Source: a virus. Taken from it: a DNA stretch of 30,236 nt. Within the stretch, counting starts at the first letter, position 1; each line of letters starts with the position of its first letter. The notes under the pieces were generated by a model. That model had not been told where the DNA came from. It was given only the letters and a program-made list of their open reading frames with translations, and made no database searches. The stretch lies in IMG/VR virus record IMGVR_UViG_3300010354_000382, positions 1 through 30,236 of that record, one strand, 5' to 3'. Shown piece by piece: positions 2,866 to 30,236 of the stretch. A program made the position numbers and the translations under genes.

Positions 2866-3615
2866 TTAACCTCCTACATTCCAAAATAATGCATCTTCCG
2901 ATGCGTGTTCTTTAATAAATGACCAAACTTTTGAATCATAGTAATCCGAAGAAGGAAACGGTGGTTTCTCTACGGTTTTACATTTTTGTTCAAATTTATA
3001 TTTTGATATGAATAATTCTGCTCTACCCCTCTCTCTGTCTGTTGTATTATGGCCAACCCTAACCCCATACACTTTAGCATCTGGCCACGCCTTCTGCAAT
3101 CCCCTGGACAAAACACCTGAACTTATACAAGACCAAACTTCTTTGGGTTTGATTGACAATTGGCTAGCAATTCTAGCAGCTTCATCAATGATAATAGGAT
3201 GGTCAAGACCAAACGGTAGTAATTGTGCACCGGGTGTTTCTACTGCATACTTTTTAGCAACATGCTGAATATGGGTTAGGAATCCCATAGGAACTTCTAT
3301 AATGTTTGCACCAATAGATAGTGCCTCTACGGTTAGTGGTAAATGTTTTCCCTTTGGAATAACTACGGTTGCCTTCAATCCTAAATCTTTACAAGCATAT
3401 GCAAGTGCAACTTGAGCATAGCCAACTCTTGGTGAAGCATATACCCATTCAGTTACATGAGACTGTGATTGAAGATACCGATAAAGGAAGCGTCTTTTTG
3501 TTCCACCCGGAAGTAAATCATCACGAACTACCCAAATGTTTTCGTGTTTTTCGATAACAACATCTGGAAGATTTACAGTAACTTCTTGTATGGGGTATTG
3601 GAAAAAATCGGACAT
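2866..3615 (-). CDS. PLP-dependent enzyme of the ACC deaminase/D-cysteine desulfhydrase fold (tryptophan-synthase-beta family)
   Basis: A 249-residue protein. The N-terminal RDDLLPGGTKRRFLYRYL (about 31-48) matches the RxDL...GGNKxRKLE signature of ACC deaminases, placing the PLP-binding lysine at K40. It is followed by the YACKDLGLKATVVIPKG stretch typical of the cofactor domain, and a Ser/Gly-rich SSGVLSRGLQ (about 165-174) where the phosphate-binding loop is expected, then VYGVRVG. The usual SNH(T/A)R substrate motif after the first domain is replaced by ASPRVGY. At 249 residues it is shorter than cellular enzymes (about 320-340). Substrate is unknown. It is cotranscribed with dUTPase and sits 26-33 bp downstream of a clear promoter; the ATG has no SD, unlike its neighbours. 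Fold assignment is fairly firm; reaction is open. Confidence 0.75.
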   Translation of the reverse strand: MSDFFQYPIQEVTVNLPDVVIEKHENIWVVRDDLLPGGTKRRFLYRYLQSQSHVTEWVYASPRVGYAQVALAYACKDLGLKATVVIPKGKHLPLTVEALSIGANIIEVPMGFLTHIQHVAKKYAVETPGAQLLPFGLDHPIIIDEAARIASQLSIKPKEVWSCISSGVLSRGLQKAWPDAKVYGVRVGHNTTDRERGRAELFISKYKFEQKCKTVEKPPFPSSDYYDSKVWSFIKEHASEDALFWNVGG

Positions 3616-8754: not shown

Positions 8755-10608
8755 TTATTTTATTTCACAAGCACCACCGGCACAAGCCAATTCGCCAGTC
8801 AAATCTGTATTATCTTCCATTTCAATAACATTACTCAAATCAACATCGTGTAATGTTTCCATCAACTTATTATACTTCTCTTCATCAATATCTTCAAAAG
8901 GTGCCTGTATGTATGTTCCACCGTCATAAGGCAATACTGAAAGACCATTGAAGTGTTCTTTATTTTCCCACATCCAATTACCAACTGCATCCCATTCATG
9001 TTCACGGATAGAAACTGTTGCAGATATGTTGTGAGTATTCATACCTGTTCTGTGACCGGGTTTAATCCAATTCTGATTGAACCATTTTACTCGTTCCAAC
9101 AACTGCAAAGGACTTTCACTACGAAGTATTGAACCATCTGGTGACTTTTGTGGAACACCAATGACAGCAGTATCATGTGGGCGGAAGTATTCATCTTCTA
9201 CCAATTCAGGATGATTTATCATAAGATAAGTATAAATTGCCTCATTCTTACCAACACGAACACGGCGTAAATAGAAATCATTGTGCCATGCATGAATGCC
9301 AGATGAACAACCCAATGTCAATGATGATGTACCAGCAGGTTTAATAGTTGTTGTTCTTGCAGATTTATTTATACCAATTATTTCTGCAATCCTTTCGTTT
9401 TCTTCTCTTGATGCCTTAGCAGAAGCTTTCAAATCCAACTTCTGAACTTTACCTGATCCTATACCTGTCATACCAACACCGAGAAGTGCATCCTTTTCAG
9501 TTGTTCTTTGCCATATCGGGCGAAGATAATGAAAATCTGTATAACCAGCTTGTAATGTTCCGATGAAAGTGGCAGCACGAACTCTGGCTTCCAAATCCTC
9601 TTGACTTTCAACATCCGAAACATTTACCTCACATAAGTTACAGAATTGGAATGGTCGAAGTGCAATCTCACAACAAGGATTTGTTCCCCAATCTTTATCG
9701 TTAGAAAGATAAATACCTGGCTCACCTGCATTTGATAACTCTATTTTCTTCCAAAGTGATTTGAAAAATTCTTCTGTTACCTTACTACGAAGAAGAACTG
9801 CCGAGTTATTAGCTCTGCCTCTTTGTGGATTAAGTTCCCACCAATTTCCAAATTTACATGAAATCATATCATCATCATCAGCAGAGAAAAGAGAAATAAG
9901 AGCAGCACGGCGAATACCACCGGCAAGAACTGCATCTGCAATATGACAAACAATATCGTGAACTTCAATAGATGATAATTGTTCACCGTCATTTTTAAGG
10001 TCAAGTATTGCCCTAATTTTTTCAATACAAATACGTAGTGGCTCTGGACCTGGTGCCTTACCACCACTTGTGATAAGTCTTGCACCTTTGTGACGAATAT
10101 CTGAATAATCAAAACGAATAGATGAACCACCGGTGAAATATGATTTCATTAGGGCTTTAATGGCATCTGCCCAACCTTCGATTGAATCACCGATAAGGAA
10201 TCTTCTTTCTTTTGATTTAGGTCTGTGAATTGGTGGCAAACTTTCTACATGATGTTTTTGAACTGAATATCCTACACCGGTTCCACCAAGAAGAAGAAAC
10301 ATCACTTCACCGAAAGCACGCCAGTCATCTATTGGCAAATAAGCACAGTTGTAAATTCTATTTGGAGAAATCTCAATTGGTTTACCACCAAACTGCAAAG
10401 AACGCATTGATGGTAAAACTTTTTTATCATATACCATTTTATAGACATTTTCAATTTCATCTTTCAGTTGTGGGTATTTTCTTTGGTGCATTTCTTTATT
10501 TCTTGTTACCAATTCTTCCCAAGTTTCCCTACGATTTTTTTCGGGAATGAAACGAGCATACTTCATGTAAACTGTAATTTCAGACAAAATTCTATTACTA
10601 ATGTCCAT
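8755..10608 (-). CDS. Adenosylcobalamin-dependent (class II) ribonucleotide reductase, monomeric type
   Basis: A 617-residue enzyme reducing ribonucleotides to deoxyribonucleotides using a B12-generated thiyl radical. Residues align well with Lactobacillus leichmannii RTPR: C88 in NCAYLPIDD (RTPR C119) and C323 in QFCNLC (C419) as the active-site redox pair; C312 in NPCCEI (C408, the radical cysteine) with N310 and E314; and the C-terminal shuttle pair C609/C614 in CAGGAC (C731/C736, CX4C). The N-terminal VLPSMRSLQFGG and GGTGVGYS segments are also typical. It is about 120 residues shorter than RTPR (739), and I have not located the missing part. There is no intein. ATG 10608 has TGGAGAAA as SD. 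An upstream terminator isolates it from the 193-residue gene, so it needs its own promoter, which I could not identify. Confidence 0.95.
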   Translation of the reverse strand: MDISNRILSEITVYMKYARFIPEKNRRETWEELVTRNKEMHQRKYPQLKDEIENVYKMVYDKKVLPSMRSLQFGGKPIEISPNRIYNCAYLPIDDWRAFGEVMFLLLGGTGVGYSVQKHHVESLPPIHRPKSKERRFLIGDSIEGWADAIKALMKSYFTGGSSIRFDYSDIRHKGARLITSGGKAPGPEPLRICIEKIRAILDLKNDGEQLSSIEVHDIVCHIADAVLAGGIRRAALISLFSADDDDMISCKFGNWWELNPQRGRANNSAVLLRSKVTEEFFKSLWKKIELSNAGEPGIYLSNDKDWGTNPCCEIALRPFQFCNLCEVNVSDVESQEDLEARVRAATFIGTLQAGYTDFHYLRPIWQRTTEKDALLGVGMTGIGSGKVQKLDLKASAKASREENERIAEIIGINKSARTTTIKPAGTSSLTLGCSSGIHAWHNDFYLRRVRVGKNEAIYTYLMINHPELVEDEYFRPHDTAVIGVPQKSPDGSILRSESPLQLLERVKWFNQNWIKPGHRTGMNTHNISATVSIREHEWDAVGNWMWENKEHFNGLSVLPYDGGTYIQAPFEDIDEEKYNKLMETLHDVDLSNVIEMEDNTDLTGELACAGGACEIK

Positions 10609-11306: not shown

Positions 11307-11991
11307 TTAACCTCTCGTTATAGTGCTTTGACCGTTCTTCGTTGGATTCACCGGCATCCAAATCAGTATGGTCATAATTCATGTTTTCCGTGTCCGGCGT
11401 AACCCATCGGTGATTCCGTTCAGCTGTCCACAGAGTATTGTTATACATTCTGTCTACTACAAGTTCTTGTTTTGTAGTGAATGCTGGATCATGAAGCAAA
11501 AAACGATTATTAGGTTGTATGGCAAAATTGCCGTTATCCATCATTATTACGTGTCCGCATTTATGTTGTGATGGATATTCGGAGAATAAATAATTTGTAT
11601 CTCCAGAATCCGTGCTAGCAGCCCAATCTAACGTAAATAAATATCTACCTTTGTATTCTTTTCTTCGTCTTGAAATAAATTTTACAACTTTATTTTTTAA
11701 GTATGGAAATTCTGTTGCGGATACATGATAAGAAAATGAATCCCACAAAACTAATTCATCTAATTCTTGTTGTGGTGTATCTTCTTTCCAACAAAAAGCA
11801 TGAATAGGCATTCTCCACCATACACCACCATCTTCCATAACGAAATGGAATAATGGTGCTTGTCCAGGAATAGATGACATACCTATAATAAGACACGGAA
11901 ATTTTTTATCAAATAAATCTTTTTGGTCTCTTAAAAAATTACCACGAACATATGCATCTATAATTGGTATAGGTGTATTCAAATATGCCAT
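11269..11991 (-). CDS. Conserved phage hypothetical protein
   Basis: A 240-residue protein, aromatic-rich, with conserved-looking blocks HFVMEDGGVWWRMPIHAF (about 49-66), SFSYHVSATEFPYLK and SEYPSQHKCGHVI followed by MDNGNFAIQPNNRF. Proteins with these blocks are familiar to me from T4-like phages of marine bacteria but without function. No catalytic motif is evident. The C-terminal 40 residues are charged and Asn/Glu-rich, probably disordered, and overlap the next gene. The start shares one base with the helicase stop (TAATG), preceded by GAAGGA, so translation is coupled to the helicase; a role in replication is possible from position only. Confidence 0.65.
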   Translation of the reverse strand: MAYLNTPIPIIDAYVRGNFLRDQKDLFDKKFPCLIIGMSSIPGQAPLFHFVMEDGGVWWRMPIHAFCWKEDTPQQELDELVLWDSFSYHVSATEFPYLKNKVVKFISRRRKEYKGRYLFTLDWAASTDSGDTNYLFSEYPSQHKCGHVIMMDNGNFAIQPNNRFLLHDPAFTTKQELVVDRMYNNTLWTAERNHRWVTPDTENMNYDHTDLDAGESNEERSKHYNERLNENTNQSSERSV

Positions 11992-13343
11992 TAGAATCCT
12001 TCCAATTCTTTAAACTTTTGTGAAAGAGCTTTCTTAACATTAACATCGCCCTTCATTGTGATTGAAACACTTTTACCCATATCGGATGATGGTTCATATA
12101 TCTCAATGTGTCCAGTCATTGTATTTATTTTACTTGGGAATGTCATTCCATCTGGACCGAAACGATTTTTGATAATATGCCATCTGCCCGTTCCACCAAC
12201 TTTATCATTTAGTTTTCTTGATAGAGACATAATGAAATCTGCGATCATAATTTTATTATATGATTCTGAAACTTTGCCTCCTTCAATAACATCATCTTCC
12301 AATGATGAACGATTCGCTTGTGATGCAGTCCAAATAGGTATTCCATAAGTTCCACCAATACCACGCAAGTCTTCGTAAATATCATTCAATTCCAATCTTT
12401 TATCACCAGCTTTTGCAGGTCTAATCAAATCCGCATAATCAATAATAACTAAATCTGGTGCCTTGCCTTGACTGATACATTTTTCTATATGTGATGTTAT
12501 AGTATTTATACTTGCAGTTTTAGTTGGATAATATTTTACAATCAAATCACCCTTTAGCGTTTCCATAGTTGAACGGATTTTTTCTTGAGCGTGTTCTTCA
12601 TTCAAATTTTGAAATGCAATTTTTGTAAAGTAAGCATCAAATCTCCTTGCAACGTAAAACTGATTTAATTCAAGCGTATAGTAAATAACTCTTTTACCTG
12701 CCCTAATAGCTTCAGCTGCAATACTAACCAATCCCCAAGACTTACCACCACCGGCAGGAGCAATAATAACACCCAATTCACCAGCAGCCAATCCACCATT
12801 TGTAATATCATCAACAACATTCCATCCCGTAGGAACACAAGTTCTTGCTCCTTCTTCATAACGAGAAATAATATCAACAATATATTCGTGACCAATATCC
12901 TTGTCTGTTCCGGCTTTTAATGCAGTATCAATTTTCTTTTTAATAAGATCATACTTACCACTCTTAAGCAAATCAACAGACTCTATGATTGCAACTTTCA
13001 TTTTTTGATTTTTACAAAACTCCAAAGTTGCATTCTTCACATAGTCCGCATCGGAACTATCTCTATATTTTTTTGTTTCCGTTAAAGAATCAACGATAGT
13101 AGACTTTAAAACTTTATCATCTACTGCCAAAATTTCAGACTTAAAAACTTCTTGTGTTGGTGCACTTTTGTAAATATTGTAATATGATATTATCTTTTCA
13201 ACAATCCAAGTATTTGCCTGCGATTCAAAATAATTAGGTTCTATTATATCGGAAACTTGTTGTAAAAATAATCTATCGGATAGTAATGCAGTTATTACTT
13301 TTGTTTGAAATGTATGACCAAATTGTGATAAATTATCCTGCAT
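11991..13343 (-). CDS. Replicative DNA helicase, DnaB/T4 gp41 type
   Basis: A 450-residue hexameric 5'-3' helicase. The N-terminal about 150 residues form the helical domain (LFLQQVSDIIEPNYF near 25-39 is typical). The RecA-like motor holds Walker A APAGGGKS (195-202), the TLE motif (223-225, catalytic Glu), and Walker B LVIIDYADLI (298-307, D302), followed by the Gln/sensor region WTASQANRSS and an arginine-finger candidate near FGPDGMTFP. Length is close to DnaB and gp41. It would unwind the fork ahead of the polymerase. The SD is AGGAATAAAA before ATG 13343; the gene overlaps the 5' nuclease by 11 bp. It is not the short Twinkle/gp4 type because no primase domain is fused. Confidence 0.93.
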   Translation of the reverse strand: MQDNLSQFGHTFQTKVITALLSDRLFLQQVSDIIEPNYFESQANTWIVEKIISYYNIYKSAPTQEVFKSEILAVDDKVLKSTIVDSLTETKKYRDSSDADYVKNATLEFCKNQKMKVAIIESVDLLKSGKYDLIKKKIDTALKAGTDKDIGHEYIVDIISRYEEGARTCVPTGWNVVDDITNGGLAAGELGVIIAPAGGGKSWGLVSIAAEAIRAGKRVIYYTLELNQFYVARRFDAYFTKIAFQNLNEEHAQEKIRSTMETLKGDLIVKYYPTKTASINTITSHIEKCISQGKAPDLVIIDYADLIRPAKAGDKRLELNDIYEDLRGIGGTYGIPIWTASQANRSSLEDDVIEGGKVSESYNKIMIADFIMSLSRKLNDKVGGTGRWHIIKNRFGPDGMTFPSKINTMTGHIEIYEPSSDMGKSVSITMKGDVNVKKALSQKFKELEGF

Positions 13344-14379
13344 TTTTATTCCTAATCATGTTTAATTGTGTAAAATTCTTTTTTAGCCATTCTTCCCAAT
13401 CTGCTATTATCGAATGTAATTTATCTTGTAAATATAATTTGTTCAACTCTACTGTATTCATTCCATCTATTTCACCATCAACCAATCTTCGTATGGTTGA
13501 TTTGTGACTTTGTGAAATATCAACATCATGTAATTGCATGATGTCATAATTTTTTTGTAATTGATTTGTGCTGTGTTTTAGAGTTTGAAGTGCTTTTAAT
13601 TTACCATCATACAATTTACAAAATTCTACGAAATTTTCCAAATTTATTTTTTCTTTTTTTGATAGTTGTGGAAAATGTTTTTTTATAGTTGTTTCGCCAA
13701 CTCCGTGAATACCCGCAACATTGTCACTCTTGTCACCCATGAGTGATTTGTATATGATATAATTCTCACACCATATACCAGTTTCTTCCAAAAGATTTTC
13801 TGGATTATACATTTTCTTTTTAGTTGGCAAATAAACATTAACCCTATCTGAAACTAATTGTAAAAAGTCTCGGTCATTGGAAAGTATTACAACTTTTTCT
13901 TTGAAATATGATGATAGGTAAGCGATAACATCATCGGCTTCAATGTTATCAATCATTATTATAGTTACCGGCAGATTTTGTAAATAAGAAAACACTCTAA
14001 CCATTTGATGTTTCATCGCTGCTTGTTCATCATCAATATCTTCAAAACCAGCAACTCTATTTAACTTTGATGTTATTGCTCGTCTTTCTTTATAGTTTGA
14101 GTATATTTTTTTTCTTCTATGTGAACCACCTTTACCATCAAAGACAACAACAACCCGCGTGGGATTTACCATGCGGATTGTTGCTCCAAGTGACTTTAAA
14201 AAACCAGACAGTCCACCGACATGAGTACCGTCTTCGTTTAATGTTGGGATGGCGGAAAATGTGCGTATAAAAAGATTCATCCCATCTACAATCAAAACCT
14301 TACTATCACGATGATAGTTCTCTTGTTCGGTTTTTTCTGTTTCTATTTCTTGTAAAAGTCTTTGATATTTGTTTTTCAT
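13333..14379 (-). CDS. 5'-3' exonuclease/flap endonuclease (T4 RNase H-like, FEN family)
   Basis: A 348-residue nuclease that removes RNA primers and 5' flaps. The acidic metal-binding residues are present: D32 (VDGMN), D81 (VVFDGKGG), E147/D149/D150 (IEADD), D169/D171 (SNDRD) and D216/D219 (MGDKSDN), followed by the helix-hairpin-helix GIHGVGETT (about 223-231). The helical arch carries RRKKIYSNYKERR. The first 25 residues are a charged extension not needed for the fold. The start overlaps the recA-like stop as ATGA. In this phage the nuclease is separate from the polymerase, unlike bacterial Pol I. Confidence 0.93.
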   Translation of the reverse strand: MKNKYQRLLQEIETEKTEQENYHRDSKVLIVDGMNLFIRTFSAIPTLNEDGTHVGGLSGFLKSLGATIRMVNPTRVVVVFDGKGGSHRRKKIYSNYKERRAITSKLNRVAGFEDIDDEQAAMKHQMVRVFSYLQNLPVTIIMIDNIEADDVIAYLSSYFKEKVVILSNDRDFLQLVSDRVNVYLPTKKKMYNPENLLEETGIWCENYIIYKSLMGDKSDNVAGIHGVGETTIKKHFPQLSKKEKINLENFVEFCKLYDGKLKALQTLKHSTNQLQKNYDIMQLHDVDISQSHKSTIRRLVDGEIDGMNTVELNKLYLQDKLHSIIADWEEWLKKNFTQLNMIRNKNAG

Positions 14380-15524
14380 ACTTCATCTTGTAATAATGGT
14401 TCATCAGAAAGTGTTACATCATCAATTCTTGCTTCATCGAGTTTCTTATATTTCATAATTACTTTATCAGCAATTTCATCATATATTATCTCATACAATT
14501 CAGGATTACTCATTATCTTTTCAACAAATTCTTTGGATTGAAATTTTATTACCTCTCCAGTTCTTTTGTCTGTCCATGAGTACCATGCACCTGATTGTGA
14601 AACAAGATTGTGTTCCTTCATAACAGTTAGCCATGAAGAATAATCATCTATACCACTATCAAAATAAACTTCATATTCACACTCACGAAGCGGTGGACCT
14701 ACTCTGTTCTTTACCAATTTCGCCTTAACTCTTGAACCAACGATTTCATCACGACCTTCTCTCTTTGCTTTGATAGCACCGATTGAAGAAAGACGAAGAC
14801 GAACAGAAGCATGGAAAGGAATACCTTTACCACCAGGTGTTGTCCAAGGATCAGAGAATGCTGGAGCATTGAGTTTCTGACGAAGTTGGTTTGTAATAAT
14901 CAAACAAATACGCTCTCTACCGATAAGGTTTGTAATTTTCCTCATTGCCTTTGAAATGATAAGTGCCTTTGCCGTAGCATAACCATCCTTATCAAAGTCC
15001 GCAGCCATTTCTGTTTTAGTGGATGCACCGGCGATTGAATCAACTACTATCGTTACCAACCTATCTTTATCGGATGAACGAACCTTGTCAATGATAACAT
15101 CAACAGTTTCAAAAATATCTTCTACTGTTTCCAATGGAATGTATAACATATCTTTTAAGTTCAAACCAATTGCAGTTAGATATTCGGTTGCGATTGCATT
15201 CTCGGTATCAATATAAACTGCAAGACCGCCTTTCTTTTGTGTGTTGAGAAGGGCATGGGCTGCCAACAATGATTTACCAGATTGTTCGAGACCTGTTATT
15301 TCAGATACACGACCAACGGGAAAACCACCATACTTACGATTGGAAATAGCCAAGTCTAACATAGTTGAGCCAGTTCCTACCCATTCTTTTACTATCGTAG
15401 GTGCATCACTATCACCTTCAAGAAAGTAAGCGGTCTTAACATTTTGTGTTTTGAATTGTTTGTTTATAGTTTCGGCAATGAGCCCACCGAGTTCATCGGA
15501 AAGATCACTCTTTGATTTTGCCAT
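14376..15524 (-). CDS. RecA/UvsX-family recombinase
   Basis: A 382-residue ATP-dependent strand-exchange protein. Walker A is GLEQSGKS (78-85), the catalytic Glu is in YIDTENA (E108), and Walker B is IVVDSIAG (D162). The L2 DNA-binding loop region has NQLRQKLNAPAFSDPWTTPGGKG, written here in parts as NQLRQKL and TTPGGKGIPFHASVRLRL, closer to bacterial RecA (NQxR...TTPGGxALKFYASVRLDI) than to T4 UvsX. The C-terminal tail is acidic. It would drive recombination-dependent replication and repair with the SSB encoded 12 bp upstream. The SD is AAGGGTGAG. Confidence 0.92.
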   Translation of the reverse strand: MAKSKSDLSDELGGLIAETINKQFKTQNVKTAYFLEGDSDAPTIVKEWVGTGSTMLDLAISNRKYGGFPVGRVSEITGLEQSGKSLLAAHALLNTQKKGGLAVYIDTENAIATEYLTAIGLNLKDMLYIPLETVEDIFETVDVIIDKVRSSDKDRLVTIVVDSIAGASTKTEMAADFDKDGYATAKALIISKAMRKITNLIGRERICLIITNQLRQKLNAPAFSDPWTTPGGKGIPFHASVRLRLSSIGAIKAKREGRDEIVGSRVKAKLVKNRVGPPLRECEYEVYFDSGIDDYSSWLTVMKEHNLVSQSGAWYSWTDKRTGEVIKFQSKEFVEKIMSNPELYEIIYDEIADKVIMKYKKLDEARIDDVTLSDEPLLQDEV

Positions 15525-15536
15525 AACTCACCCTTA

Positions 15537-16292
15537 TTAAAATAAATCATCAAATGTAACACCTGCATCTTCTGGAGATGTAGTGGTCTTAACTGTATCT
15601 GCCTTTTCTTCTTTGTAGTTCAAGTCTTCGGCAGGTTCTTCTGATTTACCTAACCAAGTTTGTAATTGTATTTTCAATTCATCATAAGTTGGTTCTGGAT
15701 AAAGTTCAGTAATCTTTGATTGTTCTTTTATTTTTTCAACCACAGATTGATCTTCAGTAACTACTGTTTCTTTTGGTTTAATACGGATAGTTGTTTCGGT
15801 ATAATCTCGGCCAGTTTCTTCTGGTGATTTTACAGTAACAACAATATCACGGCCGGTTTTGACATCGGATAAATCTCCGTAATCAGGATCAGCAAAGAAG
15901 CCGAGAAGTTCTTGATAAAGTTGTTTACCGAATCCCCAAAACTTTACTCCCTCATTTTCTTGACCACGAATGATAACTGGAACATATACACGCATTTTGG
16001 GTTCTAACTTTCTACCCATAACCCAATCACTCTTATCGCCTGTTTGCTTCAATTTTTCAGCAAAATCTACAATAGGATCAGGTCTTCCAAATGAAACTGG
16101 AGAAAGAATTGAACGTTTGCCAAGATTGTAATGAAAATACAATTCCAAGAATGGATTGTCTCTGTTGTGTACATAAGGTACAATTCGGATTTGGTGTTCA
16201 CCCGGTTCGGGTTTCCAAATGTTAGATGTGCGATTGTTTGCGTTTTTTAAAGAGTTCAAACGACTCTTGATTGCATCTAGGTTAATAGCCAT
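15537..16292 (-). CDS. Single-stranded DNA-binding protein, T4 gp32-like
   Basis: A 251-residue protein. The N-terminal MAINLDAIKSRLNSLKN resembles the gp32 cooperativity region, followed by an OB-fold core beginning WKPEPGEHQIRIVPY with LYFHYNLGKRSILSPVSFG. The zinc-finger Cys/His set of T4 gp32 is absent, as in many gp32 relatives. The C-terminus is acidic and ends DAGVTFDDLF, a typical SSB protein-interaction tail. The SD is AGGAG seven bases before ATG. It heads the operon SSB-recA-FEN-helicase and lies about 58 nt downstream of the predicted start of the promoter at 16358-16386, in keeping with high early expression. Confidence 0.88.
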   Translation of the reverse strand: MAINLDAIKSRLNSLKNANNRTSNIWKPEPGEHQIRIVPYVHNRDNPFLELYFHYNLGKRSILSPVSFGRPDPIVDFAEKLKQTGDKSDWVMGRKLEPKMRVYVPVIIRGQENEGVKFWGFGKQLYQELLGFFADPDYGDLSDVKTGRDIVVTVKSPEETGRDYTETTIRIKPKETVVTEDQSVVEKIKEQSKITELYPEPTYDELKIQLQTWLGKSEEPAEDLNYKEEKADTVKTTTSPEDAGVTFDDLF

Positions 16293-18319: not shown

Positions 18320-18709
18320 TTAAAATGTATAAACTTTAAGTAGTATTATTTTAACTACTTTGAATCCGTCTTTGTTTTTCAGTAACGCACAATTTCTGTA
18401 GCGTTCCCATTCGATAGGATATGTTTTGTCCAATATACCATTATTTAAGTTCATAATTAGTTCATTCAATGCATTTATAGTGTATATCGTGTTTGTTTCA
18501 CGTTTTTGATGAACCATTATTGAGTTTGGGAGGAATTTTTTGTAACTATCCATTACAACATTGTAGGATAATATACAATCTTCTTTTAGATCAAATGTTC
18601 TAAAAAGAAAAACTTTATTATTTAAAATTGAAAATGTATTTTTTATATCACTAATTGTATTGTCTATTTGGTGTTTGCGTGTGAACGTACATACTAATTG
18701 TGTCTTCAA
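18320..18709 (-). CDS. Conserved hypothetical protein of T4-like phages
   Basis: A 129-residue protein. VCTFTRKHQIDNTISDIKN (about 6-24), then QKRETNTIYTINALNELI (about 68-85) and PIEWERYRNCALL (about 98-110), form a pattern I recognise from small conserved proteins of marine T4-like phages, with no function assigned. The start is TTG at 18709, preceded by an AGAGAGAGG purine run; an in-frame stop just upstream leaves no alternative. A copy of the recurrent motif lies 34 bp upstream. No catalytic residues are evident. Confidence 0.65.
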   Translation of the reverse strand: MKTQLVCTFTRKHQIDNTISDIKNTFSILNNKVFLFRTFDLKEDCILSYNVVMDSYKKFLPNSIMVHQKRETNTIYTINALNELIMNLNNGILDKTYPIEWERYRNCALLKNKDGFKVVKIILLKVYTF

Positions 18710-18757: not shown

Positions 18758-19972
18758 TTAAATTTGCAGAATACTACCAAAAGTGTCTCCCGTGTAAATT
18801 TTTACTGACATATTATCTGTCTCAAACGCAGACTTCAAAACATCAATTAAATCCGTTTCTTCTGGATGAATATCAAATATGAACGCATCATAAAGATACA
18901 TCATAAATACAGACTTCTTATTTTTCAAATAAGGTAAAATACTTTTTATCTTACGGACATTGTATTCGGTTTCTAATGATTGAAGAACATAGTTGAATAC
19001 TTTATTTGGTGTTATGTCTTTAATATCCATAAATAGTTTTTCATAAAACCAAGAATTAACTACACCGTTTGTTTCATATCTATGATACATTTCATCAATA
19101 AGTGCCTGCACAGATTGAAAGAATGGGTGATTCATAAACTCTGGTGTTATATTTCCATATATGTTCTGAAATACTTTACCTTTGAATTGATCATAGTCCA
19201 TATCTATTCCCAAATCTTTCTGTATTTGTTCGTAAGGATGATATTCAAATTTATATTCTAATATCTTTGCCAATATTTTTATATGGAAAGCATCGTAATC
19301 AAATTGAACAATCTTTCCACTATCAAACCGTGAACGAATTTTATCTCTACTACCATCTTTCTTATTCATTGCAGAGAAGTTAAACCCACCCCAAGCATTA
19401 CTTGGTCTGCCTGTTGCCGTATACCACATATAATTTTGTTTCTTCCATTCGTCACCAACAAGAATATCATTTTTTTCAATCTCATGGAATACATTTATGA
19501 AATCATTACAATAATCTATACAATTTTGACTAATTGGATTATCTTCATAAACCTTCATAACATATCTTGCGATTTTTCTTGCCCATTCCAATTGTTTTGA
19601 AAGTGGTATCACTTGACCTAAATCTTCTATTTTGTAAAATTTGTTTGCAAGTATTTCCATTCCTTTCGGATAAAATTCATGGGGGTTTATGTTGTCTGAT
19701 ATGTAGTAATGAAGATATGAATTTATATCAATACCATCGGTTATATTGTTATACACCAATACCTTTTTATTGAATACAAGGGTTTTGGAGTGTAAACGAA
19801 TATCATGTAAAACAATATCACTATGGATTTCATCTGGATGTGTAAAGTTAATATATTGTTCTTCACCATCCGTAAAAAGAAAATACATACCGATAACGCC
19901 AACTGCAGATTGGTGTTTGTTTGGATTAGTTGTAATTGGAATGCAAACCGAAGGTTTTTCTTGAAAAATCAT
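18758..19972 (-). CDS. Family A (Pol I-like) DNA polymerase, polymerase domain only
   Basis: A 404-residue replicative polymerase. Family A landmarks are in order: TATGRPSN (185-192, the TxxGR box), motif A IVQFDYDAFHIKI (221-233, metal ligand D225 = Pol I D705), motif B FKGKVFQNIYG (263-273; K264 = K758, F268 = F762, Y272 = Y766) and motif C LYDAFIFDIH (360-369; D362 = D882). Deviations: the steric-gate Glu (E710) is His (H230), the motif C HDE is YDA, and R754 is Tyr. The N-terminal about 120 residues lack the DxE of a 3'-5' exonuclease, though VGVIGMYFLFTDGEEQYINF hints at a remnant fold. The family norm with exonuclease is about 600-700 residues. Rhodothermus phage RM378 has a comparable split. 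It starts right after the 218-residue structural gene. Confidence 0.85.
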   Translation of the reverse strand: MIFQEKPSVCIPITTNPNKHQSAVGVIGMYFLFTDGEEQYINFTHPDEIHSDIVLHDIRLHSKTLVFNKKVLVYNNITDGIDINSYLHYYISDNINPHEFYPKGMEILANKFYKIEDLGQVIPLSKQLEWARKIARYVMKVYEDNPISQNCIDYCNDFINVFHEIEKNDILVGDEWKKQNYMWYTATGRPSNAWGGFNFSAMNKKDGSRDKIRSRFDSGKIVQFDYDAFHIKILAKILEYKFEYHPYEQIQKDLGIDMDYDQFKGKVFQNIYGNITPEFMNHPFFQSVQALIDEMYHRYETNGVVNSWFYEKLFMDIKDITPNKVFNYVLQSLETEYNVRKIKSILPYLKNKKSVFMMYLYDAFIFDIHPEETDLIDVLKSAFETDNMSVKIYTGDTFGSILQI

Positions 19973-19975
19973 AAA

Positions 19976-20632
19976 TTATACATCATACACGGTATATTCA
20001 AAAAAGTCTGTGATTATTTCTGCTAATCTAGGAAATTTCTGTGAATGCCGCAAGACAATTCTTTTATTTGTATCAAATACTCCGGGCTGAACTAATAAAT
20101 CATTTTCATAAACATCAAATTGTGGACCATCCAATTTCCACTTAAATTCTAACAAACCATATAGACTTTGATTTATTCCGGCATTATTAGCATTGTAAAG
20201 TTCTGTTTGTTGCTTACTAACCTCAAACATTACACGTTTTGGTTCATTTCTTTTGTAAATAAAATATCTATCCATAACACCTTTTAATAATTCAGCATCA
20301 GTAGTTTTTCTTTTTACTGCTCTTGGTGCACGGTATCTATTTGAATTAAAAACTCCACCACCTATTATTTCTTTTTTTTCACCATTAGATTTTATGTAAT
20401 TTTTAGTATCAATATATTTGAAATACATTTCATCTCTTGGTCTATATCTTACTAACTTTTTTGAAGTTTTAGCATTCCATTCAGGTTGTGTAAATGTTTC
20501 TCCTGTAATATATCGGTGATAATAACCACGATACTCTTGCCAATCATCAAGAATCATCCATTCTTTACCTTGGGTGTAAAGATTTTTTTCTATCTGACTA
20601 TCAGGATAATATAATTTATTACGGCGATTCAA
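19976..20632 (-). CDS. Probable tail/baseplate-associated protein of unknown fold
   Basis: A 218-residue protein, rich in Tyr, Arg and Lys, without membrane segments. It contains EWMILDDWQEYRGYYHRYITG (about 25-45, given in part) and a conserved-looking PRDEMYFKYI; the end is FPRLAEIITDFFEYTVYDV. No family was recognised. Placement 21 bp after the baseplate-hub-like gene and 3 bp before the polymerase gene suggests it is the last gene of the tail module. The start is TTG at 20632 with TGGAG about ten bases upstream; no in-frame ATG gives a sensible N-terminus. Confidence 0.65.
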   Translation of the reverse strand: MNRRNKLYYPDSQIEKNLYTQGKEWMILDDWQEYRGYYHRYITGETFTQPEWNAKTSKKLVRYRPRDEMYFKYIDTKNYIKSNGEKKEIIGGGVFNSNRYRAPRAVKRKTTDAELLKGVMDRYFIYKRNEPKRVMFEVSKQQTELYNANNAGINQSLYGLLEFKWKLDGPQFDVYENDLLVQPGVFDTNKRIVLRHSQKFPRLAEIITDFFEYTVYDV

Positions 20633-25053: not shown

Positions 25054-28000
25054 TTATACCTCAATACCATCAAGTTCTCCGGGTAATAATGAACCACGAT
25101 GTTTAGGGTTAATTGTAAACGTACCAAATCCACCATTTTTAATATATTTTCTTCTTGTTTTAACAGTCTTTCCTTGAGAGTTTGAATCAACAGGAGACCA
25201 TCCTGTTAAATTATCATCTATCGCATATCCAGCAACTCTATACGCCTTGGTATTCCATTTTGTTCTCCAAGATTGAGCAACAACACTTGTATATGGATCT
25301 TCCACTGGAAACCACCAGGTTCCGTTTACTTTTTCTGATACCGCTTCTAATTCAGGAGTCATTGGTCCGTCATATGATTTTGTGAAATATCCTGGACCAA
25401 CTAACCAAAATTGTGATCTATCTCCTATATCTTTTCTATGACCTTGTGTTAAAGGAGAACATTTTGTATTGCCCAAACATTCGGTTGATATTTTAATACA
25501 ATCCTTTGCATCACCTTCTGCATTATCTATTCTAATCTCTATTCGTATATTTTTTGGATCAGATGCACTATCTACTCCTTGCATTTTTTGCTCATACCCT
25601 TTACCCATAACATTTATTCTTTTTGGATCTATTCCATATTCTTTTTCTAAAATAAGTTTAATCGTTTCAGCTCTAGCAAGACTTAATCTTTTATTGTAAG
25701 CCGCATCTCTACTTTTTTCATCACCTGTCATATAGTTTTTATTTTTTTTATCTTTTATATCCAAATTTGGATTTGATCTATTAGCATGACCAATTAGTGT
25801 TATTCTTGCACAATCACAAGTTTCATTTAACCATTTTGCCAATTCTTTTATTGAATTTTCAGATTCAGGTGTTACATATCTATCTTCATCAACATAAAAG
25901 TTTATAGGACACAAACATTGTGTTGGTGGTGTTTTCTTTTCTTGTACAACTTCTTTTGGTTTAGTTTCTGGCTTTTTTTCCACCGGTTTTTTAGGTGGTT
26001 CATTTCTATCTATAATTGCACATAAACCACTATTCATTATATGAGAAACGGGTAAATCATCAAATGTTCTGAAATAATTTACTCTATCATCATGCATTGG
26101 AGCCAATCCTGTTTCAAGTGAACCATCTCCACTTTCATCATCAAAGAGAGAATAAAATACACAGTCCCATTCTGGACGATACATATTAAATGTTACAAAT
26201 GTACATTGAACATTTATTGTTTTTGGTAACTCCAATACACCGGGCATTGATAATGCTTTATCAAAAACATCACCAAAATTTTGGTCTTCTTTTAATTTTG
26301 CAGTCTCCCACGTTGTTTGTGTATTATCGAATGTATATGTTAATGTAGATAGAAAACCTGGAAACTTCCTATAAAGATTTCCCAAATTTAATCTAATAAC
26401 AGGAGCACGCATAAATCCGTTTGTTGTGTATTCGGGTGCAGTCCATGACGCTAACATATTTAATTTACGCCATGTTGCTTTCATTTCATCGCGTGAACCG
26501 ATATGAACTGTAAATCCAAAGTTTATATCTCTTTCATATCCATCATAAGAATAAACTGGATCAGCACGACCAATATATTTTATAGGAGACCACGATGGTT
26601 TGTGATTATCTACAATAGTATCTATGTATGCCCTAAACACAAGTGCTTCTGTTGGATTAAATTCGGAACCCTTCAATCTAGCACCCGTAAAATAAAATTG
26701 TATTAAATCCTCTGCTCCACCAATAGAATCCGCTGTACTTTGTGCAGAATTTTTTACTTTTTCATAAACAAATGCAGAACTCAAATCTGTGGTAGAACGC
26801 TTCCAATCTATTATATTTATTCTATCACCTCTAAACGTTGGAATATCAAATGTTTTTGTAGTTTGAGTATTCGTAGTACCTGAGCCAGGTTCTACTTCAC
26901 CAGTTATAGGATTTATTACATCGCCTTGGTATCTTTCTTGTTCTTCTTTGGTAACTTTTAGTCTCTTTGGTTTTTGAGTTGGGTACGCTGCATATTTGTA
27001 ATTAGCCAAAACATTTTCAGTTGTTTTAACAGTTGGATCACTATTTTTCTCGTTTGGTAGTAAAGATGAATACTGTACTGTACTAACATATGGTCTACTT
27101 CTATCATTTCCTGGATCCCCAGCAGAACCAATACCAAATCTATATTCCAAATTGTTTTGTTTGAAGTTAATTACTTTTGGACTTGAAATAAATGTTTGTG
27201 TAGTTTTTTTACCAGCAAAACTAGATCTAAAATCTCTAAATTTTACAGAGTCTCCTATATTACTAAATCCACCATCTCTTTTTGTAGTTAAGTCTTCATA
27301 TCCTGCTGTTTCATACGATTTTCTTGGATCAGTATCTTTATCCAGTTGATTTCTATTTAACATCTCATTAGATTGTATTCCGCCTCTCAATGTTGATAAC
27401 GATTCACCTGATATGTTTCTTAACCTTTCGGATGGATTGGGGTGTTTCCATTGGGAAAATCCTGCTCTAAATAATCTCCTTGCAGTTATTTTTTGCATTC
27501 CATATGGAGTATCTGGATCAATTGTTGGATTATTTCTATCTTCGGTTGCATCATCTCCGGTTATTGGTAAGTCTTTAATATATTGTCTTAAAGCTAATAA
27601 TATACCACTAAATTCTATACCACCAGAGCCATCGTCTGGTTCAATTGTAGCATTTTGTACGAACTCTGAATATTTTTTATACGTACCTGCTGCAGAATCT
27701 TCTTCGGTTGAACCCCAAAATACTTCTCTATCCTTTCCATCTCTTATGTCTTGTGCTTTTGGAAAATAACCAGTAGAATTTATGCCCTTGTATGGATGTG
27801 TTGATCTGTTTATAGTTGTTCCAAACAATCCTAAAAATGATCCAGGACCACCAAAAAATGTTGACAATCTTTTTATTTCAGTTGATGTGTCTGGTGTAGG
27901 CATATCTTTTGTTAATAAAATAGGTCTATACGAATCTGGCAATAATTCTTTTGTAAGAGAGACCAATCTATTATAGTCACTTGTTCTGTTTAATGATCCG

Positions 28001-30236
28001 GGTGAAGTAAAATCTTCAAATTTTCTATTATCTGTATTTTCTTGACGAGTTACGGCAATATCTTCGTATGCTCCTTCGCCATACATCAATACACCATGTC
28101 TAGCGAGTCTTAATCCTAATATACCAGCTCTACCCGCAACATTTAATGGAACTGACAATGGGTTGTATATGTTTGTCCAATTAACACCTAATACTCCACC
28201 AGGTAAACCCAATGCACCTGCAATACCTAATAATCCCGTTCCTGTATCTACCATTGGATTCATAAATTGTAATCCAATTTGTTTTGCATTCCAAAGCAAA
28301 CCTTTTGGTGACAATAAGAATTTTGTAATACGTTTAGTATCAAGTAATGCCCTAATAGTATTTTTTATTATACCACCTCTAACTATACCGTCATCAAATG
28401 ATTGGGCTTTATCAATAAAAGATATTGCCTGATTTATGCTATTTTTTACACTACTTAAATCAAATGTTCCTGAACCAGGAAGGGAAACGGTATTTGGTAA
28501 ATTAACAGCAGACCTTAAAGCAGCAAAAACATCTCTATCTTCTCCGTTCAAAGATGTATCAACAAATGGTTGTGGGTATGTTGTAGATGTATTGAATGAA
28601 TCTTTTACTAAATTATACTTTGAATATTGATAGTCTATATGTGATTTATACAATACACCATTGTAATATGGTAAACCATTAAATGATCTATTTAAAGCAA
28701 CAACTTCTGCAGCGGTTAAAACTGGTGTTCCAGTTGTTGTAAATGTTTGAAACGCAGCGTTTACATCACCGGAATTTGCCCATATTGCCATTTGACCATC
28801 TACAAAAGTTGGCTGTGTATCAACTCCACCACCTAATGTGTATCTATTAACATCCATAAATGGAAGAACTCTGGCAGGATTTATCACAAATGTTGAACCG
28901 TTTGTTTGATCAACTAATTGTCCTACGGTTTTACCACGTCTTCTGTATCCTGTTATATTAAATCCATATTTCTGAACATTAACAACCGGCGATTGATTGT
29001 CAAGTGTTGCTTTAAATCCAGATATACTCTTTCCACCAAAACTTAAAGGAGCAAACTGTTCTAAATTATTTGTTTGTAACGGTTGTAATATTTGTCTAAA
29101 CAAAGATAATGCAAATCTTTGTGCCTTCTGTGGAACAGATGCAAGATTTAATATACTTGCATTGAATTGTGGTGTTATTATTGGATATGCAGTACCATCC
29201 AATTGAGACATATTCACCATAAAACCAAATCTGTTTGTTTGGGTGAATCCAAAAAATCTAGTTGTTCTCATACCATAAGGATCTGTACCATCCCAATCAA
29301 AATCAGATGTTCCCACTCCTTGAGCACCACCAATCAAAGATACGCCACCAGCATTTATAGGTTGTCCTTGATTAGTATTTGTATATGAAGTTGGTTCCAG
29401 TGGTCTTGCCTGAATGTGAAAACCTCTGAATGTAAATCTGTTGTTTGGATCGAAATAATTAACAGCAGGAGCAACTTGTGAAGTAGTTGCACTAAACTGT
29501 GATCCACCGCCATCCCAATCAAGATCAGAAGTACCGGCACCCAATGCTCCACCCAAAAGGAATGTACCAGGTCCTGTTATAGGTTGATTCTGATTATTAT
29601 TCGTATATGAAGTTGGTTCCAGTGGTCTTGCCTGAATGTGGAAACCTCTAAATGTAAATCTACCGTTTGCATCAAAGTAATTTACAGCAGGAGCAACTTG
29701 TGAAGTAGTTGCACTAAACTGTGCTCCAGCACCATCCCAATCTAGATCAGAACTACCTGCACCTAATGCTCCACCCAAAAGAAATACACCACCAGAAGTT
29801 ATAGGTTGTCCTTGGTTTGTATTGGTATAAGAAGTTGGCTCAAGCGGTTGTGCTTGAATGTGAAATCCTCTAAAAGTTGCTCTGTTATTTAAATCAAAGT
29901 AATTTACAGCAGGAGCAACTTGTGTTGTATTCGCACTAAATTGTTGTCCATCGCCATCCCAATCAAGATCAGAAGTACCAGCACCTATACCTCCTCCCAA
30001 AAGAAATACACCACCAGCAGTTATAGGTTGTCCTTGATTTGTATTCGTGTAAGACGTTGGTTCAAGTGGTTGTGCCTGAATGTGGAAACCTCTAAATGTA
30101 AATCTATTTGTAAAATCAAAATAGTTTACTGCAGGTGCAACTTGTGATGGTGACGGATTAAACTGTTGACCTCCACCATCCCAATCAAGATCAGAAGTAC
30201 CGGCACCCAATGCTCCACCCAAAAGAAATACACCAC
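25054..30236 (-). CDS. Giant tail/baseplate protein with tandem repeats and OmpA-like domain, 5' end outside window
   Basis: The frame is open to the window's right edge, so the true start is outside; the visible part is over 1720 residues. Domains from N to C: at least four 74-residue repeats (29289-30236) with GAGTSDLDWDG, QVAPAVNYFD and FRGFHIQA..LEPTSYTN; a long beta-rich middle; a Gly/Leu-rich hydrophobic stretch (about 28060-28260); a baseplate-type module (plus 26250-26720: YIGRADPVYSYDGYERDINF, DEMKATWRKLN, FPGFLSTLTYTFDN); a Pro/Lys linker (KPVEKKPETKPKEVVQEKK); an OmpA-like peptidoglycan-binding domain (about 25520-25925: LIGHANRSNP, NKRLSLARAET, VMGKGYEQ); and a 130-residue C-terminal domain. 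Followed by the LysM and hub-like genes. It probably forms part of the baseplate and touches the cell wall. Confidence 0.75.
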   Translation of the reverse strand, partial: GVFLLGGALGAGTSDLDWDGGGQQFNPSPSQVAPAVNYFDFTNRFTFRGFHIQAQPLEPTSYTNTNQGQPITAGGVFLLGGGIGAGTSDLDWDGDGQQFSANTTQVAPAVNYFDLNNRATFRGFHIQAQPLEPTSYTNTNQGQPITSGGVFLLGGALGAGSSDLDWDGAGAQFSATTSQVAPAVNYFDANGRFTFRGFHIQARPLEPTSYTNNNQNQPITGPGTFLLGGALGAGTSDLDWDGGGSQFSATTSQVAPAVNYFDPNNRFTFRGFHIQARPLEPTSYTNTNQGQPINAGGVSLIGGAQGVGTSDFDWDGTDPYGMRTTRFFGFTQTNRFGFMVNMSQLDGTAYPIITPQFNASILNLASVPQKAQRFALSLFRQILQPLQTNNLEQFAPLSFGGKSISGFKATLDNQSPVVNVQKYGFNITGYRRRGKTVGQLVDQTNGSTFVINPARVLPFMDVNRYTLGGGVDTQPTFVDGQMAIWANSGDVNAAFQTFTTTGTPVLTAAEVVALNRSFNGLPYYNGVLYKSHIDYQYSKYNLVKDSFNTSTTYPQPFVDTSLNGEDRDVFAALRSAVNLPNTVSLPGSGTFDLSSVKNSINQAISFIDKAQSFDDGIVRGGIIKNTIRALLDTKRITKFLLSPKGLLWNAKQIGLQFMNPMVDTGTGLLGIAGALGLPGGVLGVNWTNIYNPLSVPLNVAGRAGILGLRLARHGVLMYGEGAYEDIAVTRQENTDNRKFEDFTSPGSLNRTSDYNRLVSLTKELLPDSYRPILLTKDMPTPDTSTEIKRLSTFFGGPGSFLGLFGTTINRSTHPYKGINSTGYFPKAQDIRDGKDREVFWGSTEEDSAAGTYKKYSEFVQNATIEPDDGSGGIEFSGILLALRQYIKDLPITGDDATEDRNNPTIDPDTPYGMQKITARRLFRAGFSQWKHPNPSERLRNISGESLSTLRGGIQSNEMLNRNQLDKDTDPRKSYETAGYEDLTTKRDGGFSNIGDSVKFRDFRSSFAGKKTTQTFISSPKVINFKQNNLEYRFGIGSAGDPGNDRSRPYVSTVQYSSLLPNEKNSDPTVKTTENVLANYKYAAYPTQKPKRLKVTKEEQERYQGDVINPITGEVEPGSGTTNTQTTKTFDIPTFRGDRINIIDWKRSTTDLSSAFVYEKVKNSAQSTADSIGGAEDLIQFYFTGARLKGSEFNPTEALVFRAYIDTIVDNHKPSWSPIKYIGRADPVYSYDGYERDINFGFTVHIGSRDEMKATWRKLNMLASWTAPEYTTNGFMRAPVIRLNLGNLYRKFPGFLSTLTYTFDNTQTTWETAKLKEDQNFGDVFDKALSMPGVLELPKTINVQCTFVTFNMYRPEWDCVFYSLFDDESGDGSLETGLAPMHDDRVNYFRTFDDLPVSHIMNSGLCAIIDRNEPPKKPVEKKPETKPKEVVQEKKTPPTQCLCPINFYVDEDRYVTPESENSIKELAKWLNETCDCARITLIGHANRSNPNLDIKDKKNKNYMTGDEKSRDAAYNKRLSLARAETIKLILEKEYGIDPKRINVMGKGYEQKMQGVDSASDPKNIRIEIRIDNAEGDAKDCIKISTECLGNTKCSPLTQGHRKDIGDRSQFWLVGPGYFTKSYDGPMTPELEAVSEKVNGTWWFPVEDPYTSVVAQSWRTKWNTKAYRVAGYAIDDNLTGWSPVDSNSQGKTVKTRRKYIKNGGFGTFTINPKHRGSLLPGELDGIEV
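29289..30236 (-). repeat. Tandem 222-bp (74-residue) coding repeats
   Basis: The marker string catcccaatc recurs at 29289, 29511, 29733, 29955 and 30177, exactly 222 bp apart each time. Some units are nearly identical in DNA (for example the stretch around 29383-29418 and 29601-29640), which suggests recent duplication or gene conversion. Left of 29289 a decayed unit is traceable (FFGFTQTNRFGFMV against NYFDFTNRFTFRGFHI). The array continues past the right edge, so the copy number is unknown. Confidence 0.95.

Follow-up and report, generated by a model that had tools for sequence, protein, structure and literature searches.

A small family A polymerase with histidine at the steric-gate position, probably an accessory second polymerase of T4-like phages

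According to PMC4882331, E710 and Y766 of E. coli Pol I are conserved universally among A-family polymerases, and replacing them with Ala yields mutators. The literature also sees in the gate Glu (E710) the basis on which ribonucleotides are excluded. Among phage enzymes, Thermus phage vB_Tt72 PolA is a family A polymerase that carries Ser, a non-acidic residue, at the E883 position and is active, its Ala variant being 76% active (PMC9324360). Unlike the protein described here, which we call miniPol, it retains Glu at the gate (E389) and has strong 3'-5' exonuclease activity (PMC9324360).

MiniPol belongs to a known polymerase class, of which GenBank already contains members: one carries a family A annotation, the other is entered as a hypothetical protein. 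The former is gene 1 of Flavobacterium phage immuto (QQO91919, 441 aa), which is 28% identical to miniPol, has the same His gate, Tyr at R754 and YDA motif C, and is followed by the genes for SSB, UvsX, FEN and DnaB. As its second polymerase, immuto encodes a PolA of 777 aa that includes an exonuclease domain, and not a PolB. The latter is WWT39333 of Microcystis phage Mel-JY01, which is 47% identical and lies in the same gene order; the complete Mel-JY01 genome also encodes a PolB, a clamp loader and a primase-like gene. The large fragments of Taq and Bst Pol I superpose on miniPol over the whole fold and likewise have an exonuclease domain that is present but inactive (KlenTaq). However, they are larger, are only 12-15% identical to miniPol, and keep the gate Glu and the motif B Arg. 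Rhodothermus phage RM378, a Far-T4 phage, likewise has its FEN-like gene (p012) separate; its polymerase gene (p024) has a family B exonuclease domain (DNA_pol_B_exo1, 2.7e-14). As the RM378 polymerase belongs to family B, the analogy with RM378 drawn in an earlier note on this DNA provides no precedent for miniPol.

The window, that is, the whole 30,236-nucleotide stretch of viral DNA that was analysed, contains the miniPol gene just upstream of the genes for SSB, UvsX, FEN and the DnaB helicase:

19976..20632, minus strand: conserved 218-aa protein, 3 bp upstream of miniPol (open reading frame and locus conservation)
18758..19972, minus strand: miniPol, a probable accessory family A polymerase of 404 aa (profile alignment and structural model)
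18320..18709, minus strand: conserved 129-aa protein, downstream of miniPol and before SSB (conservation)
15537..16292, minus strand: single-strand DNA binding protein, SSB (PHROG 1192, E 2.3e-16)
14376..15524, minus strand: UvsX/RecA recombinase (Pfam RecA, 5.6e-50)
13333..14379, minus strand: 5'-3' exonuclease/FEN, a Pol I-type 5' nuclease (Pfam 5_3_exonuc_N, 2.5e-34)
11991..13343, minus strand: DnaB/gp41-like replicative helicase (PHROG 19, 6.7e-76)

In loci long enough to be scored, miniPol was linked to SSB in 97/100, to UvsX in 81/84, to FEN in 70/72 and to DnaB in 64/67; this linkage may mirror a general replication cluster and not a joint pathway with the FEN. A homologue of the 129-aa protein was present at 179 of the relatives' loci. 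Its model was of high confidence (pLDDT 92.7), but neither Foldseek (E<0.001) nor VIA (Z of at least 8) returned a match. Between the window and locus L031, the 129-aa protein was 97% identical and the adjacent miniPol only 76%, a contrast suggestive of a recombination junction lying between the genes. DnaG-like primases are annotated elsewhere in the complete genomes of Mel-JY01 and immuto, with weak Pfam support, and the possibility that miniPol is a missing primase was set aside on this account.

Other regions of the window contained an S-adenosylmethionine lyase domain (1674-2321; PF23780, 6.7e-11), which also occurs near the miniPol of Mel-JY01 in WWT39336 (4.4e-10), and a pyridoxal-phosphate dependent enzyme (2866-3615; PALP, 3.6e-10), unusual among phage genes. 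Domain matches to a B12-dependent (class II) ribonucleotide reductase were identified at 8755-10608. Four tandem repeats of 222 bp (74 aa) at 29340-30236 lie in a large open reading frame (25054-30234) and reach the window end.

Searches with the window protein alone against Pfam, PHROGs and PDB sequences were empty or returned noise; a weak match to phrog_24055 (E 0.005) was dismissed as chance. A single-sequence query identified 51 IMG/VR loci with miniPol relatives, and conserved-motif queries derived from the alignments returned at least 315, at least 565 and at least 565 candidate relatives, in overlapping sets. Matches in annotated phages were those of Mel-JY01 and immuto and a 31% identical protein of LR756508, an uncultured phage of 484 kb. 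The scan of bacterial and archaeal genomes gave only four relatives, all weak and all in metagenome-assembled bins. A diverse alignment of 99 sequences was compiled, with relatives 24-89% identical to the window protein. The miniPol profile matched a profile of the E. coli, T7, Twort and immuto PolAs with 98.2% probability (E 5.5e-14, hhalign). Pfam DNA_pol_A (PF00476) was matched individually by 67/99 of the diverse miniPols, the window protein giving no match, and the immuto miniPol exceeded the Pfam cut-off (4.6e-11).

The AlphaFold2 model built from the 99-sequence alignment (pLDDT 95, pTM 0.91) showed a palm-fingers-thumb fold preceded by an exonuclease-like domain. It matched Klenow in Foldseek (E 1.4e-14), with Pol theta and Pol nu also among the matches, and aligned with KlenTaq over model residues 1-402 (336 residues, Z 27.6, rmsd 3.6), KlenTaq being entered at residue ~300. 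By the model, miniPol keeps the whole Klenow architecture in reduced form. The earlier view that this is a small family A polymerase is supported by both the profile match and the end-to-end superposition. Neither a gate Glu nor an intact exonuclease domain, the two results that the earlier note would have taken as refutation, was found by profile alignment and model. The subdomains are:

19607..19972, minus strand: degenerate 3'-5' exonuclease-like domain, residues ~1-122, without the DEDD set (KlenTaq alignment, conservation)
19475..19603, minus strand: thumb-like helices, residues 124-166 (model secondary structure; subdomain name inferred from position)
18761..19474, minus strand: palm and fingers, residues 167-404 (model, structural match, profile alignment)

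The thumb-like region of the model is far shorter than the Pol I thumb. Since the model matches KlenTaq end to end, the N-terminal domain corresponds to the exonuclease domain. The residues conserved in it are H20, H45, K69, K70 and D82, and no conserved DEDD-type acidic set was found in this domain across the 99-sequence alignment; in contrast, the immuto full PolA has the DTE, HN..FD and Y...D motifs. The absence of a working 3'-5' exonuclease, as first read from the sequence, is thus upheld in a modified form: the domain is present in the model and its conserved acidic residues are missing. These findings support a vestigial, proofreading-dead exonuclease domain.

Residue equivalences to E. 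coli Pol I were taken from the profile alignment and from the model superposing on KlenTaq, with side-chain positions inferred from the alignment ranges. The equivalences were D225=D705, H230=E710, H245=H734, Y260=R754, K264=K758, F268=F762, Y272=Y766, Q331=Q849, Y361=H881, D362=D882 and A363=E883. The Pol I residues kept in miniPol are D705, H734, K758, F762, Y766, N845, Q849 and D882. Both catalytic aspartates are retained, as are most of the residues that bind nucleotide or primer. The three polymerase motifs were located by conservation and profile alignment:

19283..19300, minus strand: motif A, D-Y-D-A-F-H, with D225 (D705) and the gate His230 (E710)
19154..19195, minus strand: motif B, Y260-xxx-K264-xxx-F268-xxx-Y272-G, with Tyr260 for R754
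18884..18892, minus strand: motif C, Y361-D362-A363, with Ala for E883

The substitutions were shared by the clade. Where family A has the gate Glu, His was present in 99/99 sequences, and in place of the motif B Arg there was Tyr in 98/99 and Met in the remaining one; in an overlapping set of 161 sequences, the gate His and Tyr260 were each present in 161/161. At position 363, 51 sequences had Ala and 48 had Ser. The catalytic aspartates of motifs A and C (D225, D362) and the O-helix residues K264, F268 and Y272 were invariant (99/99 each), as were D227, H245, Q331 and Y361, although the loci were retrieved partly by motif A and motif C patterns and invariance there was somewhat favoured by the search. 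The later motif A patterns stopped short of the His, and one of the six patterns from the single-sequence search touched the start of motif B. The alignment by eye in the earlier note had proposed His at the gate, Tyr for R754 and Ala for E883, with D705, D882, K758, F762 and Y766 kept, and each of these assignments was reproduced. Ten catalytic or substrate residues of Pol I were invariant in the miniPols, and 12/14 mapped Pol I functional positions fell within the 25 invariant columns (hypergeometric p ~1e-14). The invariance of the catalytic Asp pair and of the K758, Y766, H734, Q849 and N845 equivalents reached relatives of ~25% identity.

The Glu and the Arg are retained in the full PolAs of miniPol genomes and in those of E. 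coli, T7 and Twort, while motif C varies among full PolAs (HDQ in the immuto full PolA, HDE, and HDS in Twort). Because the E883 position varies in full PolAs, and because the Tt72 PolA has Ser there and is active as the Ala variant, loss of E883 is unremarkable; the unusual changes, which set the clade apart, are E710H and R754Y. With a widely conserved Glu and Arg both replaced, miniPol is a divergent branch of family A and not an ordinary Pol I. Losing R754 means losing a contact to the triphosphate, which could severely impair catalysis in the absence of compensation. The gate His might either maintain contact with the Y766 equivalent and keep the 2'-OH out, or relax that exclusion; altered ribonucleotide discrimination is plausible.

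A second polymerase was found in 21 of 24 genomes of relatives, family B in 12 and a full-length PolA in nine. PF00136 (family B) was matched in Mel-JY01, LR756508, G001, G003-G006, G012-G014 and G016, and a PolB protein query added G021 (the record of locus L003), the nearest long relative, with a miniPol 89% identical to that of the window and a PolB that has polymerase and exonuclease domains. The immuto group is without PolB and has a PolA of ~780 aa (W02, G008-G011, G015, G017-G019). None of the genomes searched for both PolB and full PolA had both. Exonuclease domains were confirmed in the second polymerases of the three phages examined, Mel-JY01, immuto and G021; among the relatives' records searched, DNA_pol_A_exo1 was found only in immuto, within its full PolA. 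In Mel-JY01, annotated clamp-loader genes lie beside the PolB. The L031 contig (G004:53000-56700, L283) has its PolB broken into two open reading frames, corresponding to Mel-JY01 PolB residues 1-554 and 556-847, with a 215-aa open reading frame between them. No Rfam intron was found in this split PolB; the break could stem from a split intein, from an insertion or from faulty assembly.

Neither PolB (by protein query) nor full PolA was found in G002, G007 and G020, which have at most 16.9 kb downstream of miniPol. Over all genomes the distance from miniPol to the downstream PolB is 15-23 kb, and it is 20-23 kb in the group to which the window belongs; these three contigs end before its expected position. 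No second polymerase was found within the window itself, which has 18.8 kb downstream of miniPol, the record being a 30-kb fragment. Since the group's PolB would be expected beyond this edge, the window's genome very probably has one there. As the relatives carry a complete second polymerase, miniPol is most likely accessory. The earlier note had suggested that fidelity would depend on a separate exonuclease and had proposed a search for a DnaQ-type gene; an RNase_T/DnaQ match was found in only one of ten relatives' records, the 484-kb one, and the proposal is better replaced by that of a second polymerase, with an exonuclease domain in those examined.

Taken together, miniPol is probably a second, accessory, non-proofreading polymerase of Pol I fold (family A) in a T4-like (Far-T4) phage, its activity being suggested by the invariant catalytic set and its role by the gene context. 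The enzyme is predicted to be catalytically active and to make short, non-proofread stretches of DNA. It may fill gaps at Okazaki junctions once the FEN has removed the primers, or alternatively may extend 3' ends during UvsX-driven recombination; against the former, T4 is not known to need such an accessory polymerase for Okazaki maturation. Together with the separate FEN, it would amount to a Pol I split into two proteins, and the best reading is that it works with the adjacent SSB, UvsX, FEN and DnaB. Less certainly, the His gate may give a different, probably looser, selection of sugar or base than in ordinary Pol I.

Other roles were considered. It is very improbable that miniPol is the replicative polymerase of the phage, proofread in trans by a separate exonuclease. 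The lack of an active exonuclease domain and the location within a replication gene cluster would suit such a role, but PolB or full PolA was present in all 21 informative genomes (the window's own genome being a fragment), separate exonuclease matches were rare, and in Mel-JY01 it is the PolB that the clamp-loader genes adjoin. An inactive fold, retained in the replisome for a structural or DNA-binding function, seems hardly credible. Both R754 and E710 are replaced and the exonuclease domain is already dead; however, the catalytic and substrate residues are invariant across distant relatives, and an inactive fold would not need them. A translesion polymerase, in which the lack of proofreading, the reduced thumb and the altered nucleotide pocket would serve damage bypass during infection, is improbable. 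An accessory polymerase with a dead exonuclease would be apt for this, and the Foldseek matches included Pol theta and Pol nu, family A enzymes that perform translesion synthesis. On the other hand, miniPol is smaller than the polymerase domains of these enzymes, with no room for their inserts, and the cluster has no damage-response context beyond UvsX.

The use of ribonucleotides for synthesis of RNA or mixed strands, for example by extension of RNA primers or as ribonucleotide patches, with the His gate lifting the block on the 2'-OH, is rather unlikely. The gate Glu is replaced in all members, the small motif C residue (YDA/YDS) recalls the HDS motif C of single-subunit RNA polymerases, and the Bst gate mutant E658A has been crystallised with rCTP (titles of 4dqr and 4dqq). 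However, His is not a small residue and may still block the 2'-OH, and DnaG-like primases exist in the complete genomes. Single-subunit RNA polymerases also retain the motif B Arg; of the Arg and Lys expected of a T7-type enzyme, miniPol keeps the Lys and has Tyr for the Arg. A dedicated second polymerase with a site rewired by His and Tyr, which accepts ribonucleotides or extends RNA primers before handing over to the replicase, is unlikely as well. If the ribonucleotide or RNA-primer reading were true, labour would be divided in a Pol alpha-like or gap-patching manner that is not known to have been described for phages.

The dN/dS of miniPol against near relatives was 0.09-0.15, indicating purifying selection. 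In a 27-sequence tree, all miniPols fell into one clade; the branch that divides them from the full PolAs is 2.2 changes per site long and has 100/100 support. This tree lends no support to a descent of miniPol from the immuto full PolA, as the two lie on opposite sides of that branch, though its deep relations are uncertain owing to the long branches. The clade comprises hundreds of environmental phage contigs and at least two isolated phage lineages. In a literature search of incomplete coverage, neither the clade nor its signature was found described, nor was its association with a second polymerase.

A widespread natural clade has thus swapped the gate Glu for His and a nearby Arg for Tyr, with the remainder of the active site retained, and it provides a natural test case for the rebuilding of sugar selection. 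The replaced residues could change which nucleotides miniPol accepts. That miniPol is constantly paired with a second polymerase of replicative type, from one family or the other, points to a division of labour between two polymerases in Far-T4 phages.
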